Shown here one piece after another: positions 9,167 to 30,341 of a stretch of 64,000 bases of DNA (position 1 is its first letter; every line of letters begins with the position of its first letter). Source of the DNA: Maribacter sp. MJ134. Its GTDB lineage: Bacteria > Bacteroidota > Bacteroidia > Flavobacteriales > Flavobacteriaceae. Location: assembly GCF_003970695.1 (NCBI RefSeq), contig NZ_CP034570.1, positions 1,488,001 through 1,552,000 of the forward strand, read 5' to 3'. A program made the position numbers and the translations under genes. The notes under the pieces are model-generated. The model had not been told where the DNA came from and made no database searches. It worked only from the letters and a program-made list of their open reading frames with translations.

Positions 9167-9787
9167 ATGTATAGGCTTTTTTTAAAAAGGATTCTAGATT
9201 TTATGTTTGCAATTTTTATCCTCGTGGTACTTGCGCCTGTAATACTAACCGTTCTGGTTGTACTAAGTATTCATCACAAAGGAAAACCGTTTTTTGTACA
9301 AGCCAGACCAGGAAAAAATGAACGCATCTTTCACTTGATTAAGTTTAAGACAATGACTGATGCTAGGGATGAACAGGGAATGCCGCTACCGGATAAGGAA
9401 AGGTTAACCAATATTGGCAAATTCATTAGAAAGACTTCTTTAGATGAGCTTCCTCAAATTTTAAACGTTCTAAAAGGTGATATGAGTTTTATAGGACCAC
9501 GCCCCCTATTGCCCAAATACTTAAATTTTTATACGGAAAACGAAAAAAAGAGACATTGTGTGCTTCCAGGAATTACAGGCTTAGCCCAAGTTTCTGGGAG
9601 AAACAATATAAACTGGGACGACAAACTGGCATTTGATGTAAACTATGTTGATCAGTTATCATTAAAACTAGACATTAAGATATTCTTTAAAACCATTAAA
9701 AATGTTCTTTCATCACGGGATGTAATTGTTGATGCAGGGACCGTAATATCAGATTTAGATGCATATAGATCAAAAGCAAAAGCTTAA
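9167..9787 (+). CDS. PglC-like initiating undecaprenyl-phosphate sugar phosphotransferase
   Basis: A 206-residue monotopic phosphoglycosyltransferase. It has one N-terminal membrane segment (about 10-32), then the family signatures KFKTM (about 64-68), DELPQILNVLKGDMSFIGPRP (split as DELPQ and GDMSFIGPRP, about 92-113) and PGITGLAQVSGR. Short members like this (about 200 residues) correspond to the catalytic core and include PglC. They move a phospho-sugar from UDP-sugar to undecaprenyl phosphate and so begin the repeat unit at the inner membrane. The formyltransferase gene overlaps its last 29 bases. A second enzyme of this kind is at 29751-30341. Confidence 0.92.
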   Translation: MYRLFLKRILDFMFAIFILVVLAPVILTVLVVLSIHHKGKPFFVQARPGKNERIFHLIKFKTMTDARDEQGMPLPDKERLTNIGKFIRKTSLDELPQILNVLKGDMSFIGPRPLLPKYLNFYTENEKKRHCVLPGITGLAQVSGRNNINWDDKLAFDVNYVDQLSLKLDIKIFFKTIKNVLSSRDVIVDAGTVISDLDAYRSKAKA

Positions 9788-10361
9788 ATGGGCTATTTTA
9801 ACTACAGGTTGGGGTCGCAATGCTAAAGATACAATTCTTGCTTATCAAGAAGGATTGCTCCAAAACTCATCAATAAACCTTTTAATCTATCAGTCAGAAC
9901 CATCTGGAGCGCATGAGGCTGCGCAGTTGGCCGGCATTCCTGCAATAAGATTGGTTAAAAAAAACTTTGTCGATACTATTTCATATCAACAAAAACTTGT
10001 TGCTTTGTTAAAGGAACATCACATTGATTACGTTTTTTTATTGAGTTATAAATATATAGTTAGAAAGCCACTTTTGGATAACTATCCCAACAGGATAATT
10101 AACATTCATCCATCGTTATTTCCAAGTTTCCTTGCCACCACTACTGCTATTCAAGAAGCACTAGATTTTGGAGTAAAAATTTCAGGAATTACAACTCATA
10201 TCATTGATGATAAAATTGATGAAGGAACCATATTGTGTCAAGAACCCATAAGGTTTGATGAGGGCGAAACATTTGAAACTGTTTATCCAAAATTTGCCAT
10301 GATGGGTAAAAAGATAATTTTGGATACGATACAACTGATTGAAAAAAAATCGAATACATAA
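9759..10361 (+). CDS. PurN-like formyltransferase, probably for an amino sugar
   Basis: A 200-residue protein of the formyl-tetrahydrofolate transferase fold. The catalytic triad of this family can be matched: Asn115 and His117 in NIHPSLFPS, and Asp154 in DDKIDEGTIL. The first strand begins at WAILTTG, so the ATG at 9759 is the only suitable start, and the gene overlaps the preceding sugar transferase by 29 bases. PurN itself acts in purine synthesis, but the tight coupling to a PglC-like primer enzyme suggests formylation of an amino sugar (an N-formyl group). The nucleotide-recognition part of the protein is too short to name the substrate. An uncharacterised PurN paralogue is the alternative. 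Confidence 0.8.
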   Translation: MHIDQKQKLKWAILTTGWGRNAKDTILAYQEGLLQNSSINLLIYQSEPSGAHEAAQLAGIPAIRLVKKNFVDTISYQQKLVALLKEHHIDYVFLLSYKYIVRKPLLDNYPNRIINIHPSLFPSFLATTTAIQEALDFGVKISGITTHIIDDKIDEGTILCQEPIRFDEGETFETVYPKFAMMGKKIILDTIQLIEKKSNT

Positions 10362-16267: not shown

Positions 16268-17440
16268 TTAATTATCTGAAGTAGTACTTAATAACAGTAA
16301 AATCATCCCCTGTGATAATTCACTTTCACCAAATTCTAAACTATATTTATTTACGCCAAAAGCTTCGGCAGAACATTGATCTAAAACACCGTTATCCTTT
16401 ACAAAAGGTTTAAAAGTATTAATAATCATTTCTTTTGTATGGGTTCCAGGACGCAACACGTTTTCGCCGTACATTAACATCGTTGATGATGATGAATCAA
16501 AATCTATTGAAGTTCCTGGAAACTGCGTATAGTACATAGAATCTTTTAATGAATTCATAGTTCTAAGAAATAAAACTTCCCTTTTTTTAAATGAAATCAG
16601 TGAGTCCATTTTTTTAGAAGACATGTTAGATATAGACTTTAATGCCAACATATACCAACCCATACCCCTACCCCAATTATTTGGACCTAATCCTTCTTTA
16701 GTTTTCAAGTCTATTGCGTGGAAAGGCAGGCCAGTTTCCTCCTCTAAACCGTATTTGAAAAAAAAATCCATTTGTGATTTTGCTAAATCAATAGCATAAT
16801 CGTTTTGGAACTGTTCCCCATAAGCCTGAAGGAAGGGAACTACTAAAGCTAAAGCATCTACTAAAAGGTCATTTTGGTGGTCTCTATATAATACAAAGGA
16901 GTATTGCTCTTTTTTAGATATCATTTTCTGTAATTCACCAAAAATTACATCTGCAATATTCTTATACTTTTCTCTTCCTGTTATTTTATAAAGTTCCAAG
17001 GCCGCATGTCCCAAAGGGACCTGATCTACATATTCAAAATCAAAACCTAATGTGTCATCGCGAACGTAGTAGCGATCATAGAGAGTTACCACTTTATCAA
17101 ATAATTTTTTGTCAAACTTAGAACTATATTTTATAAGTCCTAAAGCAAGATAAGCCCTAGGGAAGTAACTAATACGATCTATTTCATCAGAACCTAAGTT
17201 TCTAAGCTTTTGAAGGAAGTTTAGTTGTCTGCCATAAGGCATATAAATTTGTGTAGAAGCAAACATTTCAAAAGAGGCGTTCACCACCTTTCTCTCCACA
17301 CTAGCATTCGCCTCATTTACCAAATAAGTTGTCTTCGATAATTTTCTCTTTACAACTGGAAAAATATCAACACTAAAAAAAACTAAATTAAAAATGATAG
17401 ATAATAGGAATACAAACCAAAGTGTTCTTTTTAGTAGCAT
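16268..17440 (-). CDS. Membrane-anchored GH88/GH105-like unsaturated glycuronyl hydrolase homologue
   Basis: A 390-residue protein with one N-terminal hydrophobic segment (about 7-28) that should anchor it facing the periplasm. The rest is an alpha/alpha toroid. DLLVDALALVVPFL lines up with the catalytic-aspartate helix of the GH105 family, and WGRGMGWYMLALK matches its conserved GRGxGW motif. Those enzymes hydrate and remove unsaturated uronic acids left by polysaccharide lyases. Finding one among assembly genes is unusual: it may trim the new glycan or recycle lyase products. Activity is not proven, since the second acidic residue cannot be placed with confidence. The call rests on motifs and helical pattern. 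Confidence 0.72.
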   Translation of the reverse strand: MLLKRTLWFVFLLSIIFNLVFFSVDIFPVVKRKLSKTTYLVNEANASVERKVVNASFEMFASTQIYMPYGRQLNFLQKLRNLGSDEIDRISYFPRAYLALGLIKYSSKFDKKLFDKVVTLYDRYYVRDDTLGFDFEYVDQVPLGHAALELYKITGREKYKNIADVIFGELQKMISKKEQYSFVLYRDHQNDLLVDALALVVPFLQAYGEQFQNDYAIDLAKSQMDFFFKYGLEEETGLPFHAIDLKTKEGLGPNNWGRGMGWYMLALKSISNMSSKKMDSLISFKKREVLFLRTMNSLKDSMYYTQFPGTSIDFDSSSSTMLMYGENVLRPGTHTKEMIINTFKPFVKDNGVLDQCSAEAFGVNKYSLEFGESELSQGMILLLLSTTSDN

Positions 17441-24246: not shown

Positions 24247-25902
24247 ATGGTAATTGAAACTAATAATAACTGGGAATTAAACGCTCCTGCAACACAAAGA
24301 GAAATTGAAGGATACGCTTCTATGAGCAGTATTAATAAGGGGGAAACTATTGCCTTATATATAAATACCAAAGCAGCATCTTTAAGTCTTTCCGTTTTTA
24401 GAACGGGCTGGTACAACGGTAGCGGAGCACTACAAGTAGTTTCTCCGATAATAATCGCTGGCCAGGTTCAGGCCGTACCCTTACCGGATAAAGACGGTAT
24501 GGTGTCCTGTGATTGGAAAAATCCGTATATTCTACAAACTTCCGAAGACTGGCAATCTGGAGTTTACTTGGTAAAACTAGAAGAAAGCCTATATAAAAAA
24601 CAAAGCTATATTATTTTCGTGTTAAGGGATGACGAAGCAAATGCGGATATTCTCTTTCAACTTCCGGTTACCACCTACCAGGCCTATAATTATTGGGGGG
24701 GTAAATGTTTGTATCCCTTTGGCAGCGGTTCTTTAGAAAATTGGGGTGCCATCTCGGGAGAAAGAGCTAAAAAAGTTTCATTTGATCGCCCCTACGCGGC
24801 GAGTAATAATCCAAAAGCAGCCTACGGTACAGGGGCGGGTGATTTCCTCACCAATACAAGACCCGTAACCACACATGACTATCCCATAAGTAGTGCCGGT
24901 TGGGATTATAATATGGTGCGTTGGCTAGAAAAACACAACTACAAGGTTAAATATTGCACCAATATTGATATTCATATAAATCCCAAAATCTACGAGAACA
25001 TAAAGATATTTTTGTCTAACGGCCACGACGAGTACTGGACCTATGAAATGAGGCAAAACCTTACCAAAGCAAGAAATACGGGTACCAACTTGGCCTTTTT
25101 CTCTTCTAATACCATGTATTGGCAAATACGTTTGGAGGATAATCCTTTGACCAGCAGATTATGTGGAACCATAGTATGTTTTAAAGAACGAGATTTAGAC
25201 CCAGTGAATTCTAAAAAAGTAAGTATCAATTTTGAAAATATTCCAGAAATAGGGTCTCAAGCCAAGTTGATCGGCGTACAGTATTTAGCAGATCCGGTCC
25301 TTGGAGATATACGAATATCAAATCCAAAACACTGGGTGTTTAAGGGCACTGGACTTAAAAAGGGTTCTAGACTAAAAGGTTTATTGGGTTATGAAATTGA
25401 TGGTGTTGTAAAAGAATCCCCTGAGGAAATAGCAGTTTTGGCCGCGACAAAATGTCGAAAAGTAAAATCAAAAACGCATCACGTACTTTTGCATATGACC
25501 AATAAACTAACAAAACCCGTAATTAAAATTATTCCTAATTCTTGGATTAAAGAAAAAAGAAATTCATTGGCCTCAAAATTGGCGCTATTAGCCCTTATAG
25601 CCATCCTTATGGCCAGCCTTTTATATAGTATAAGTATTTTACTATTCTTTATCAGTTTTTTTATGGTTTTACTCTTTATTACATTATGGTTTTTGAAAAT
25701 TAAGTTATCCACCACATACGAATCTCATATGACCATCTACACAAAAGATTCCGGAGGTACCGTATATGCTACAGGAAGTATGCAATGGTGTTGGGGTTTA
25801 GATAACTATAATTCACCTAGTCTAAGAAAAGATTTGACCTCCAAAAGCGCTCAAATTATAACTAAAAATGTATTGGCCAAATTAGGAGCAAATCAAAGAT
25901 AG
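24247..25902 (+). CDS. N,N-dimethylformamidase beta-subunit-like protein with internal membrane hairpin
   Basis: A 551-residue protein related to the large subunit of N,N-dimethylformamidase. Family features include the N-terminal beta-rich domain with FRTGWYNGSGA (about 50-60), TYQAYNYWGGKCLY (about 142-156), the NGHDEYWTYEMR motif (about 258-270) and a C-terminal SMQWCWGLDNY. The known enzyme splits N,N-dimethylformamide with a mononuclear iron held by two Tyr and one Glu; I cannot assign these residues here with certainty. Residues about 441-486 are two hydrophobic helices inserted into the conserved domain just before YESHMTIYT, which the soluble enzyme lacks. The gene also has a G7 run at 24695-24701. 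It has no signal peptide. In a glycan locus the substrate is probably a formamide or amide on a sugar, but this is inference. Confidence 0.75.
   Translation: MVIETNNNWELNAPATQREIEGYASMSSINKGETIALYINTKAASLSLSVFRTGWYNGSGALQVVSPIIIAGQVQAVPLPDKDGMVSCDWKNPYILQTSEDWQSGVYLVKLEESLYKKQSYIIFVLRDDEANADILFQLPVTTYQAYNYWGGKCLYPFGSGSLENWGAISGERAKKVSFDRPYAASNNPKAAYGTGAGDFLTNTRPVTTHDYPISSAGWDYNMVRWLEKHNYKVKYCTNIDIHINPKIYENIKIFLSNGHDEYWTYEMRQNLTKARNTGTNLAFFSSNTMYWQIRLEDNPLTSRLCGTIVCFKERDLDPVNSKKVSINFENIPEIGSQAKLIGVQYLADPVLGDIRISNPKHWVFKGTGLKKGSRLKGLLGYEIDGVVKESPEEIAVLAATKCRKVKSKTHHVLLHMTNKLTKPVIKIIPNSWIKEKRNSLASKLALLALIAILMASLLYSISILLFFISFFMVLLFITLWFLKIKLSTTYESHMTIYTKDSGGTVYATGSMQWCWGLDNYNSPSLRKDLTSKSAQIITKNVLAKLGANQR
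24695..24701 (+). repeat. G7 homopolymer inside the formamidase-like gene
   Basis: Seven consecutive G residues encode Trp150-Gly151-Gly152. It is the longest G or C run I noticed in this low-GC window. It is in frame here, and a slip by one base would truncate the protein soon after. Such runs can be sites of phase variation or of sequencing error. Confidence 0.8.
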
Positions 25903-25930: not shown

Positions 25931-27553
25931 ATGAAAAAAGCTCAATTACGTATTGCATTTATTATAGACACTATAAAAGTGGAGAAATGGAAACATAGGG
26001 TAATTAATACTATAGAAAATGCAAGCTACCTTAAAGATTTTGTCGTTTTAAACCTTTCGGATAAAAATGAGAAAATTGAAAGTAGTTTTTCTTTGAACAA
26101 AAAGTCATTTTGGTATGACCAATACTTACGTCTTGATAATAGACTATTTAGACCTAATCCGAATGCCGATGAGCTTGTAGCTTTGGACAAAAACTACTTA
26201 TCCGAATTTATACAATATCCTTACGACCAAAAAGACTATACTTCGTTACAGGACCGTCTTAGAAAAATGGAATTAGATGTCATAATAAATTTAAGTAATA
26301 GAAATATTGATTTTTCCGTGCTAAATATGTCAAAGTATGGCATGTGGCACCTGAAGTTGGCAGACAATATCCATCATCTAAAAAAATATGACGGTATTAA
26401 TGAAATCATCAAAAAAAAAGTTACCCTAGACTCCCATTTGATAGGCCGAAATTCTGACAATAAAGAATACCTTCTTTTTAGCACAAAATCTTTTGTAGAC
26501 TATTTAAGCATTAGTAGAACAAAAAATGCCCATTTATGGAAAAACAGCCTATTCATCACGAGAAAATTAGCAGAACTTTATCGCCTAGGTAATAATTTTT
26601 ATGATTTACAGCCTATTCTAGCAGATAAGGAACTTGAAACAAAAATTCATGCGCTACCAAGTCTGTCCCATCTTTTGGGTCATACACTCAAGACCTCTTT
26701 GAAATTATTAAGTAAAAAAATAACAAACCGATATAGGTTTCAGCAGTGGATATTGCTATTCAAATTTACCGATGACTTTTTTATTAATGAACATCTAGAG
26801 TCATATATAAGAATTAAACCTCCAAAAGATCGTATTTGGGCAGATCCTTTTCCGTACGTAAAAGATGGGAGGTATTACATCTTTATAGAAGAAATGCTTT
26901 TCTCTGACAATAAAGGTTTTATCTCGGTAATGGAACTTTATAAAGATGGGACTTTCTCCAAGCCCAAAAAAATTATTGAGAATGACTACCATATGTCCTA
27001 CCCCTTTTTATTCGAACATGAAAACAATTTGTATATGATTCCAGAAACCGGTAGTAATAAGACCATTGAATTATATAAATGTTCTGAATTTCCCTATAAA
27101 TGGGAGTATACTAAGACCTTAAGGAAGGGCGTTAAATCTGTAGATACCACTTTCTTTGAACACGATAATAAATATTGGATTTTCACCAATGAAAAACAAA
27201 TTGAAGGTGTGTCGGCCCATGAAGAATTATTTCTTTACTACACAGATGACATAATCAACGGAGAATGGAAAGCACATCCCAAGAATCCAATAGTTTCGGA
27301 TGTTAGTTGTGCGAGATCTGCTGGAAATATTTTTTTTAAAGGAAAACGTATTTTTAGGCCAGCTCAAAACTGTTCTAAAAGATATGGTTATGGAATTAAA
27401 ATACAAGAAATAATTAAATTGAACGAACATGACTACGAAGAATATAATATTAATTCTATTTATCCCGATTGGGCTAATGATTTGAAAGGTACACATACAA
27501 TTAATTCCACAGATGACCTTATTGTCATTGATGCCTTAGTCAATAAGTTTTAA
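25931..27553 (+). CDS. GINT1-N-like beta-propeller protein (putative glycan synthesis enzyme)
   Basis: A 540-residue protein. The N-terminal half (about 1-270) has an alpha/beta character, with RIAFIIDTIKVEKW at the start and a stretch (IINLSNRNIDFSVLNMSKYGMWHLKL) like that of formyltransferase-fold proteins. The C-terminal part (about 290-540) is a beta-propeller like the N-terminal domain of plant glucosamine inositolphosphorylceramide transferase 1: RIWADPFPYVKDGRYYIFIEE, SYPFLFEHENNLYMIPE and SVDTTFFEHDNKYWIFTN blades resembling GH43-like folds. Bacterial relatives sit in polysaccharide loci but have no proven function that I know of. It follows the formamidase-like gene after 28 bases and precedes a GT2 gene. 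Confidence 0.65.
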   Translation: MKKAQLRIAFIIDTIKVEKWKHRVINTIENASYLKDFVVLNLSDKNEKIESSFSLNKKSFWYDQYLRLDNRLFRPNPNADELVALDKNYLSEFIQYPYDQKDYTSLQDRLRKMELDVIINLSNRNIDFSVLNMSKYGMWHLKLADNIHHLKKYDGINEIIKKKVTLDSHLIGRNSDNKEYLLFSTKSFVDYLSISRTKNAHLWKNSLFITRKLAELYRLGNNFYDLQPILADKELETKIHALPSLSHLLGHTLKTSLKLLSKKITNRYRFQQWILLFKFTDDFFINEHLESYIRIKPPKDRIWADPFPYVKDGRYYIFIEEMLFSDNKGFISVMELYKDGTFSKPKKIIENDYHMSYPFLFEHENNLYMIPETGSNKTIELYKCSEFPYKWEYTKTLRKGVKSVDTTFFEHDNKYWIFTNEKQIEGVSAHEELFLYYTDDIINGEWKAHPKNPIVSDVSCARSAGNIFFKGKRIFRPAQNCSKRYGYGIKIQEIIKLNEHDYEEYNINSIYPDWANDLKGTHTINSTDDLIVIDALVNKF

Positions 27554-28463: not shown

Positions 28464-28521
28464 CTTTATTTAATTTATTCTGGGCTATTAACAATGTGAC
28501 CAAATTTATAAAGTAGTACTC

Positions 28522-29747
28522 ATGATTCCATTCTCCCCCCATATATTAACGACGATGTTATAAAAGAAGTTGTAGACTCCTTAAAATCAGGATGGATAAC
28601 AACTGGCCCAAAAGTTAAGGAGCTAGAAAATGAAATCGGTCAGTTATTGCATCTAGAGAATATTCTTTGTGTAAATTCCTGGACCTCCGGGGCTATAATG
28701 ATATTACGTTGGTTAGGTCTGGAAAAAGGTGATGAGGTAATTATACCCTCTTACACTTATAGTGCCACCGCTCTTGCAGTTATTCATGCAGGAGGAACCC
28801 CAATTATGGTCGATGTTTGTGATAATTTCAATATAGATGTTAAAGCAATAGAAAAAGCTATTAGTCCGAGAACTAAAGCAATAATGTCCGTAGATTTTTC
28901 TGGCTATCCCTGTGACTATTCGGAAATACAGAAATTAGTAGTTGACGCTAAAATTCAAAAATTATTTAAACCCAATTCCAAAGTTCAAAAAAAACTAGGT
29001 AGAATTCTATTTATATCAGATGCAGCGCATTCATTAGGTGCTAGCTATAAAAACAAAGGAATCGGTCATTTTTGCGATATATCTATTTTCTCGTTACACG
29101 CCGTAAAAAATATAACTACAGCTGAAGGTGGTGCCATAGTAATTAATATGCCAGAACCTTTCAACAATACCAAATTATATAGTGAGTTGAGGTCAATGAC
29201 CTTAAACTGCCAAACAAAAGATGCATTTTCCAAATCACAGGGTGGTAATTGGAAATATGACATTACAGGTTTGGGAATGAAAATTAATATGGCAGATGTA
29301 AACGCTGCAATCGGATTGGCGCAAATAAGGGAGTATCCAACATTGTTAAAAAGACGAAAATCAATTTTTAAAGCTTACAATAATATATTTAAACAAACTG
29401 ACTGGGCTATTTTACCCCCAATGTCCGCAGAAGATAGAGAATCATCATTTCATCTTTATCCACTGCGTTTTAAAAATATTACAGAGGAACAAAGAGATCA
29501 AATTATTAAATGTATCAGTGAGCGTAAAATTGCAGTTAACGTACACTTTATTCCATTGCCATTATTAACATATTTCAAAGAACTTGGTTACGATATGAAT
29601 GAGCAACCAAAAGCTTATTCAAATTACAAAGCAGAGATTAGTTTACCTATATATCCTCAACTATCCGATATAGATGTTGAACTTATAATTAGAACTGTAA
29701 TTGAGTGTTACGAGCAAGTAATGGGTATTACTTCTAAAATAAATTGA
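28522..29747 (+). pseudogene. DegT/DnrJ/EryC1 aminotransferase with an apparent frameshift at a C6 run
   Basis: A PLP-dependent sugar aminotransferase, about 408 residues if repaired. ATG at 28522 begins MIPFSP, but at a run of six C (28535-28540) the conserved sequence moves to the next frame: PPYINDDVIKEVVDSLKSGW, then ITTGPKVKELENEI. One extra C would join them as MIPFSPPYINDDV, the exact usual N-terminus. The second frame has no ATG, GTG or TTG between its upstream stop (28509) and a TTG at 28647, and starting there would remove about 42 conserved residues. The body is intact: SDAAHSLGA and the catalytic lysine in SLHAVKNITTAEGG. It would transaminate a keto-sugar nucleotide, as PglE does. 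The next gene starts 3 bases after its stop. The break could be phase variation, a real mutation or a base-count error. Confidence 0.85.
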
Positions 29748-29750
29748 TAA

Positions 29751-30341
29751 ATGTTGAAACGTATTTTCGATATTTCATCGTCTATAATTGGGATTATCTT
29801 ACTTATTCCTTTTTTCATTATCATTTCAATCTTAATTAAATTAGATTCAAAAGAGCCCATATTTTATAGGCAAGTAAGAGTAGGGAAAAACAATAAAGAT
29901 TTCAAACTTTTCAAATTTAGAACCATGTCCTTGGGATCTGATAAAAAAAGTTTAATAACCATTGGCAATAATGACCCTAGGATTACAAAACCTGGTGTTT
30001 TTTTAAGAAAATACAAATTGGATGAACTGCCTCAAATTTTTAATGTTTTTATTGGAGATATGAGTTTTGTTGGGCCAAGACCTGAGGTTAGAAAATATGT
30101 TAAACTGTACACTACGAATCAACTGAGAGTCCTTTCTGTAAAACCAGGTATTACAGATTTAGCGTCGATTAAATATAGTAATGAAAATGAGCTATTAAAA
30201 AATCAAAAGAATCCTGAAAAGTATTATGTTGAGATTCTAATGCCAAAAAAATTAAAGCTTAATATTGATTATATAGAAAAGCGCAATCTATTTTTTGACA
30301 TAAAGTTGATTGTGCTGACTTTTAAAAAAATTTTATCTTAA
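29751..30341 (+). CDS. Second PglC-like initiating undecaprenyl-phosphate sugar phosphotransferase
   Basis: A 196-residue monotopic phosphoglycosyltransferase. It has one N-terminal hydrophobic segment (about 8-30), KFRTMS (about 59-64), YKLDELPQIFNVFIGDMSF (about 90-108), GPRPEVRKYV and PGITDLAS. The fold and length match the catalytic core found in PglC. It starts 3 bases after the aminotransferase gene, so the pair probably makes and loads one amino sugar onto undecaprenyl phosphate. It differs clearly from the enzyme at 9167-9787 (PGITDLAS instead of PGITGLAQVSGR), which suggests a different donor sugar. It is the last gene of the polysaccharide locus. Confidence 0.9.
   Translation: MLKRIFDISSSIIGIILLIPFFIIISILIKLDSKEPIFYRQVRVGKNNKDFKLFKFRTMSLGSDKKSLITIGNNDPRITKPGVFLRKYKLDELPQIFNVFIGDMSFVGPRPEVRKYVKLYTTNQLRVLSVKPGITDLASIKYSNENELLKNQKNPEKYYVEILMPKKLKLNIDYIEKRNLFFDIKLIVLTFKKILS

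Follow-up and report, generated by a model that had tools for sequence, protein, structure and literature searches.

What does a dimethylformamidase (DMFase)-like protein that carries a hydrophobic insert do in a bacterial glycan locus? The question arises from a 64,000-nucleotide stretch of the Maribacter sp. MJ134 genome (here called the window, meaning the whole stretch analysed). The source genome is assembled as one contig of 4.0 Mb, and the genome of Maribacter sedimenticola falls within the same genus group. The protein and its N-terminal domain are encoded as follows:

24247..25902, + strand: DMFA2_C (dimethylformamidase large-subunit-like) protein of 551 residues with a probable membrane insert; ATG start; called from the open reading frame, Pfam and a structure model
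24292..24645, + strand: Ig-like N-terminal domain, residues ~16–133, equivalent to DMFase domain I; beta-rich in the model

The window protein matches the Pfam family PF20254 (DMFA2_C) with an E value of 8.9e-100 and 335 bits against a cut-off of 27. The match runs over residues 48–520 and profile positions 2–371 of 374, with the insert included in the span, and it is the sole PF20254 match in the genome (genome-wide profile search, E up to 0.001). An AlphaFold2 model built on a 21-row alignment reached a mean pLDDT of 85.3 and a pTM of 0.83, with 332 of the 551 residues at 90 or above; 10-residue blocks of the insert lie at pLDDT 42–78, and loops 161–166 and 209–215 also fall below 50. In a structure search, DMFase overlaid on the model with Z 33.7 and an rmsd of 2.6 Å over 408 residues, spanning model residues 16–549, and N-acetyl-(R)-beta-phenylalanine acylase with Z 34.5 and an rmsd of 2.9 Å over 407 residues, after which the next row falls to Z 17.2. 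The overall fold of DMFase domains I and III is present in the model, and the DMFase-like fold proposed in an earlier, sequence-only reading of this DNA is thus borne out by the Pfam match and the DMFase overlay alike. Matches below these two include a GH42 arabinopyranosidase (Z 17.2) and beta-1,2-glucosyltransferases (Z ~15–16), at about 220 residues each.

The pentraxin domain II of DMFase, which occupies residues 74–337 inside domain I (PMC7686228), is absent: the window protein has just 551 residues and its Ig-like domain is continuous. Furthermore, a genome-wide search with a single query, the Methylobacterium DM1 small subunit, found no homologue of the DMFase small subunit at E values up to 0.1; the control, a self-match on the source plasmid, scored 6.3e-90, and a very distant homologue could escape a single query. 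The large subunit of Paracoccus DMFase is inactive alone (PMC7686228).

The iron of Paracoccus DMFase is bound by Y399, Y440 and E521, and H519, N547 and E657 are required for activity, E657 being the proposed catalytic base (PMC7686228). Equivalents of these residues were located in an alignment of 36 sequences, comprising 8 plasmid DMFase-type genes and 28 others including the window gene:

24685..24687, + strand: Y147, corresponding to iron ligand Y399; Tyr in all 36 sequences
24712..24714, + strand: Y156, corresponding to iron ligand Y440; Tyr in all 36 sequences
25024..25026, + strand: H260, corresponding to essential H519; His in all 36 sequences
25030..25032, + strand: E262, corresponding to iron ligand E521; Glu in all 36 sequences
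25108..25110, + strand: N288, corresponding to essential N547; Asn in 35 sequences and Asp in one, L050 (Paracoccus aminophilus)
25393..25395, + strand: E383, corresponding to the proposed catalytic base E657; Glu in all 36 sequences

By this alignment all six mapped ligand and catalytic residues are conserved in the window protein, including the full Tyr/Tyr/Glu iron set (Y147, Y156 and E262) that the sequence-only reading had singled out for checking; ligand loss was not seen. A first mapping with a HMMER profile had set Y440 opposite a non-Tyr position and was overruled by the deeper alignment, which assigns it to Y156. Model confidence around Y156 is only moderate (block mean pLDDT 70). 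A larger automatic alignment of 123 rows, some of them duplicates or fragments, has rows deviating at the six positions: L050 (Asp in place of Asn), L120, L129, L130, L100, L103 and L104, together with L023, which is present as two pieces, and L034, both incomplete rows. The window protein is predicted to bind Fe(III) and to hydrolyse an amide.

The insert and its hydrophobic part lie at these positions:

25462..25710, + strand: clade-specific insert, residues ~406–488, between strands 396–405 and 490–499, at the DMFase F693 loop
25579..25692, + strand: two hydrophobic stretches, residues 445–462 and 465–482; probable membrane hairpin with both ends cytoplasmic, from hydropathy, Lys/Arg counts and the model helix

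A hydrophobic interruption at about residues 441–486, followed by the motifs YESHMTIYT and QWCWGLDNY, had been noted from the sequence. Both motifs do occur after the insert, and at a hydropathy limit of 1.6 the interruption is made up of the two stretches above (taken as a single run, the hydrophobic part covers 439–490). The insert region is 89 residues long in the window protein and 89–99 across nine homologues, that is, the window protein and its eight close homologues L007–L014, vs. 4–17 in the 12 other rows of alignment A1. Eight plasmid DMFases have 28–32 residues at this site, counted over a slightly wider span, and none of the eight has a hydrophobic stretch there, in keeping with the earlier statement that the soluble enzyme lacks the insert. 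Both stretches are found in all nine homologues (mean hydropathy 1.69 to 3.47). Mean pairwise identity among the nine is 19.8% in the insert vs. 62.8% in the core, so that hydrophobicity, not sequence, has been retained, and the persistence of the stretches in nine of nine despite such low identity argues that they are not chance. We infer from this conserved hydrophobicity that the window protein is membrane-tethered through its insert, as previously supposed.

The shape of the insert is less clear-cut. In the model of the window protein, residues 441–482 form a single continuous helix at medium confidence, with no clear hairpin. Eight of the nine homologues have Pro, Gly, a charged residue, Asn, Gln or His within the middle 12 residues, and from these breaker residues a hairpin is probable; the window protein has none. 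Of the inserted membrane hairpin first proposed, the hydrophobic insert therefore stands, and the hairpin shape does not appear in the window's own model. The flanking strands 396–405 and 490–499 are confident in that model, so that the insert is a loop extension and leaves the core unbroken; the expectation that it would pack outside the catalytic core is borne out in the AlphaFold2 model.

Alignments place the insert at DMFase loop 678–707, which holds F693, a residue that lines and restricts the substrate pocket of the partner subunit (PMC7686228). The hairpin would thus have grown from an active-site loop, and a membrane-facing pocket is a reasonable expectation if the dimer is kept. In all nine homologues, 3–5 Lys/Arg residues fall in the 15 residues before the first stretch, 2–4 in the 15 after the second, and 0–2 in the loop between them. 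Under the positive-inside rule this bias places both ends of the insert, and hence the catalytic domain, in the cytoplasm. Moreover, none of the nine has a hydrophobic stretch elsewhere in the protein, and so there is no usual signal peptide; this, combined with the charge bias, suggests that the catalytic domain faces the cytoplasm. L015 and L016 likewise lack a signal, and many other relatives start, by reading, with a sequence of the Sec, lipoprotein or Tat kind.

In a tree of 90 cores, built by a quick method without bootstrap and with the insert columns removed, the nine insert proteins form one clade (SH-aLRT 99). The insert is absent from the other 81 rows of the tree, and a single origin therefore suffices to explain it. 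The sister group (support 95) consists of six proteins that look secreted; four come from named Burkholderiales. Contigs of the eight homologues are named as Flavobacteriaceae or its genera, except L009 (Bacteroidia only). Across the 123 aligned rows, none besides the nine reaches the hydropathy limit at the insert site; L129 has a 73-residue segment there with a maximum hydropathy of 1.24, below 1.6. All rows named above as deviating at the active-site positions, with the exception of L050, were omitted from the tree. Also omitted were L001–L005, L088 and L107, whose genomes are represented by other rows, and L116, L132 and L134, which are incomplete or align poorly. Few of the sampled genomes have PF20254: it was found in 6 of 199 in the bacterial family sample (five of these six carry the insert), in 4 of the 395 genomes of the order set and in 10 of the 395 of the phylum set, each count taking in the window's own genome.

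Around the gene lie glycosyltransferases, O-antigen ligase-type proteins, sugar-1-phosphate transferases and a DegT aminotransferase, and the region also encodes an asparagine-synthase-like protein, a FemAB protein and a formyltransferase. The glycan setting described in the sequence-only reading is supported by all nine homologue loci, which sit among glycan genes, some of these neighbours being assigned by reading only. Two genes of the right flank have homologues in the right flank of L007–L011:

28647..29747, + strand: DegT-type sugar aminotransferase
29751..30341, + strand: initiating sugar-1-phosphate transferase (Bac_transf)

This shared flank indicates that several homologues occupy largely one orthologous glycan locus of variable content. 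The DegT frame is broken near its 5′ end (window ~28500–28650), and the listed open reading frame starts late as a result; relatives have intact copies, and the break is either a sequencing error or a real mutation. A GH88-type hydrolase-like protein is encoded at 16268–17440, within an otherwise biosynthetic glycan locus.

As read from sequence, the link to glycans comes mainly from domain fusions in relatives. Among 198 genomes sampled from the phylum to which the Nitrospira genome of L016 belongs, 25 have a PF20254 match and five encode a GT2-DMFA2_C fusion (L174–L178). The fusion proteins are 1235–1273 residues long and consist of a GT2 glycosyltransferase and hydrophobic segments with DMFA2_C as the C-terminal part (e.g., L174:2731–6468); two of the five full proteins were checked against Pfam, and the others were read as near copies. 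The next gene begins 11–62 bp after each fusion and contains Acyl_transf_3 in all three cases tested of the five, and fusion and following gene likely form a synthase-plus-hydrolase glycan system. The fused GT2 scores best against a cellulose-synthase model (72 bits, cut-off 699), with 33 bits against a poly-GlcNAc synthase model, so that the product need not hold amides.

Other relatives carry further pairings. A GT28-type glycosyltransferase gene ends 4–37 bp before the DMFA2_C gene in L015, L016 and L023; in L023 (7950–9427, Polaromonas) the DMFA2_C gene behind it is split into two open reading frames. Ricin-type lectin domains were found in all five sister-clade proteins tested, of the six in the tree; L018, L019, L020, L021 and L109, secreted-looking DMFA2_C proteins of which four come from named Burkholderiales, carry such domains at the C terminus. 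L027 has a CBM5/12-like match just below the cut-off (25.9 vs. 26.2 bits), and no carbohydrate module was found in L028, L006 or L099. The genes of L135–L137 (Nitrospira group, secreted-looking) lie, by reading, beside apparent riboflavin and chaperonin genes rather than glycan genes. An apparent GT4-type glycosyltransferase gene follows within 10 bp of the DMFA2_C gene at L138 8402–11292, also by reading.

The bond that the enzyme cuts was weighed against its neighbours, among which are two formyltransferase-related genes:

25931..27553, + strand: protein with a formyltransferase-like N-terminal fold and a GINT1_N five-blade propeller; adjacent downstream in 6 of 9 loci
9759..10361, + strand: sugar-type Formyl_trans_N gene, ~14 kb upstream in the same glycan region

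These genes would suit a sugar N-deformylase that edits or balances the N-formyl groups set by a formyltransferase of the same locus, and Paracoccus DMFase does cleave formamides (PMC7686228). The propeller of the adjacent downstream protein is of GH43/GH62/GH130 type (best Z 20.3, in a structure search that listed only propeller matches), and its N-terminal domain matches an ArnA domain at Foldseek rank 38 (E 3.6e-6, with a TM-score by query of just 0.24). The L011 counterpart has a formyltransferase-like domain by sequence, at 15.1 bits below the Formyl_trans_N cut-off of 26.1, whereas the downstream proteins of L010 and the window have no Formyl_trans_N match, and by our reading the formyltransferase motif is degenerate in the window and L007. 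An extra sugar-type formyltransferase paralogue lies 14–22 kb away in four of the nine insert genomes (window, L008, L009 and L011), and the L011 genome has a further weak Formyl_trans_N match of 35 bits ~2.5 kb away. The remaining five, however, have three Formyl_trans_N genes each, a number common in the family, and 22 of 149 family genomes have at least four matches (four genomes are common to the two sets, two of them among the 22), which makes the association weak. Deformylation was rejected as the main reading on this count, the formamidase label of the sequence-only reading is unproven, and we judge a sugar N-deformylase unlikely. As separate observations, the L009 genome has four GINT1_N copies; the Formyl_trans_N gene at 9759–10361 overlaps the end of a sugar-1-phosphate transferase gene (9167–9787) and is followed by the FemAB gene; L010 and L007 (L172, L173) also have the sugar transferase and FemAB genes, in these cases with the Formyl_trans_N gene missing.

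The same fold and metal site could also act on another bond, as an ester hydrolase or an acyl/amide transferase on the glycan. MBOAT and SGNH-like genes in the window, the latter with a match far below its cut-off, would fit such a role, as would the Acyl_transf_3 genes behind the fusions. The MBOAT/SGNH pair had been taken as a clue to the substrate, yet neither gene has a match within 8 kb on either side of the gene in the other eight loci, and the clue was dropped. Every residue proposed for hydrolysis in DMFase is kept and both solved relatives are named as amide hydrolases, which leaves this option quite unlikely. Scavenging of formamide or other small amides, by an enzyme that came to lie in a glycan locus through an accident of synteny, would agree with the characterised member, which degrades DMF and formamides (PMC7686228), and with the tendency of stray genes to gather in such loci. 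It is very unlikely given that the glycan setting is kept in nine homologues while the neighbours vary, that the AmiS/UreI or ABC transporter genes found beside plasmid DMFases were not recognised beside the window gene, and that no small subunit homologue was found. Finally, a membrane insert in a polysaccharide locus would fit a scaffold without catalytic activity whose hairpin serves to anchor glycosyltransferases. We hold this to be highly improbable, as even distant relatives keep the metal and catalytic residues and core identity lies far above that of the insert.

The most economical account remains an amide hydrolase that is anchored in the membrane and has a glycan intermediate as its substrate. 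On this reading, which we hold tentatively and at somewhat under an even chance, the window protein would be a membrane-held, iron-dependent amide hydrolase that works on the cytoplasmic side and de-N-acylates an amino sugar within a surface glycan that is lipid-linked or nascent. It draws on the computed fold, the conserved ligands, the insertion point, the single origin of the insert, the glycan locus and the glycan-linked fusions in relatives. Iron occupancy, activity, membrane topology and substrate are predictions. The protein would use the DMFase fold and a 2-Tyr-1-Glu Fe(III) site; the hydrophobic hairpin would hold it at the cytoplasmic face of the inner membrane; and, as the hairpin would derive from the F693-type loop, the mouth of the active site may lie near the bilayer. 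The bond cut would most likely be the amide that joins an acyl group (acetyl, perhaps formyl) to an amino sugar of a lipid-linked or nascent surface glycan, before export. N-deacylation is the preferred reaction because enzymes of this fold are known to hydrolyse amides and amino-sugar genes are present in the locus.

Several observations count against parts of this account. The exported look of many relatives, judged by reading, speaks against a cytoplasmic amide hydrolase, and the inactivity of the lone Paracoccus large subunit, with no small-subunit homologue here, against an amide hydrolase as such. The non-glycan genes beside L135–L137 weigh against the glycan reading, the nearness of the fused GT2 to cellulose synthase against an amide-bearing product, the one long helix of the window model against the hairpin, and the moderate model confidence around Y156 against the metal site. 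A wider proposal, which we regard as possible rather than probable, is that the GT2-fused, lectin-bearing, GT28-paired and hairpin-bearing DMFA2_C proteins form an undescribed class of iron-dependent glycan N-deacylases, in which a flavobacterial active-site loop became a hairpin for lipid-linked sugars at the cytoplasmic face.

Judged by title and start of abstract, none of 13 papers that mention dimethylformamidase concerns glycan synthesis, in a search that preprints and most subscription papers lie outside; one paper names the enzyme in a gene list and assigns it no glycan role. A search for DUF6605 gave no result. In the part of the literature thus covered, the 2-Tyr-1-Glu iron site appears only in a pollutant-degrading enzyme. 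If the de-N-acylation reading is true, this site would have a natural role in the editing of bacterial surface glycans, polysaccharide N-deacylation would gain a new metal chemistry and fold, and many DMFA2_C proteins annotated merely as dimethylformamidase-like would gain a function. It would also provide an example of a membrane anchor that evolved by growth of an active-site loop.

Among known systems, DmfA2 of Paracoccus (PDB 6LVB–6LVE) shares with the window protein the Ig-like domain, the alpha/beta/alpha core and the residues of the 2-Tyr-1-Glu iron site, at 20% identity. The pentraxin domain II occurs only on the DMFase side, and no small subunit homologue was found for the window protein, which has a membrane insert in the F693 loop and is encoded in a glycan locus, where DMFase belongs to an operon for the breakdown of DMF. 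N-acetyl-(R)-beta-phenylalanine acylase (PDB 8HUY, 8I59 and 8I5A) has the same fold over most of the model and is an amide hydrolase by name only; it shows 19% identity, has no membrane insert in the alignment and is named for an amino acid amide. The GT2-DMFA2_C fusions belong to the same wider DMFA2_C clade as the window protein and are likewise membrane-linked and tied to glycan synthesis, but they are anchored by the glycosyltransferase's own membrane segments and not by a loop insert. No CE4-type match was listed for the window protein in the Pfam and structure searches. PgaB/IcaB and NodB, which belong to CE4, are carbohydrate N-deacetylases with an unrelated fold and metal site; their type of role, N-deacetylation of a growing amino-sugar glycan from a GT2 synthase, resembles the one proposed here.
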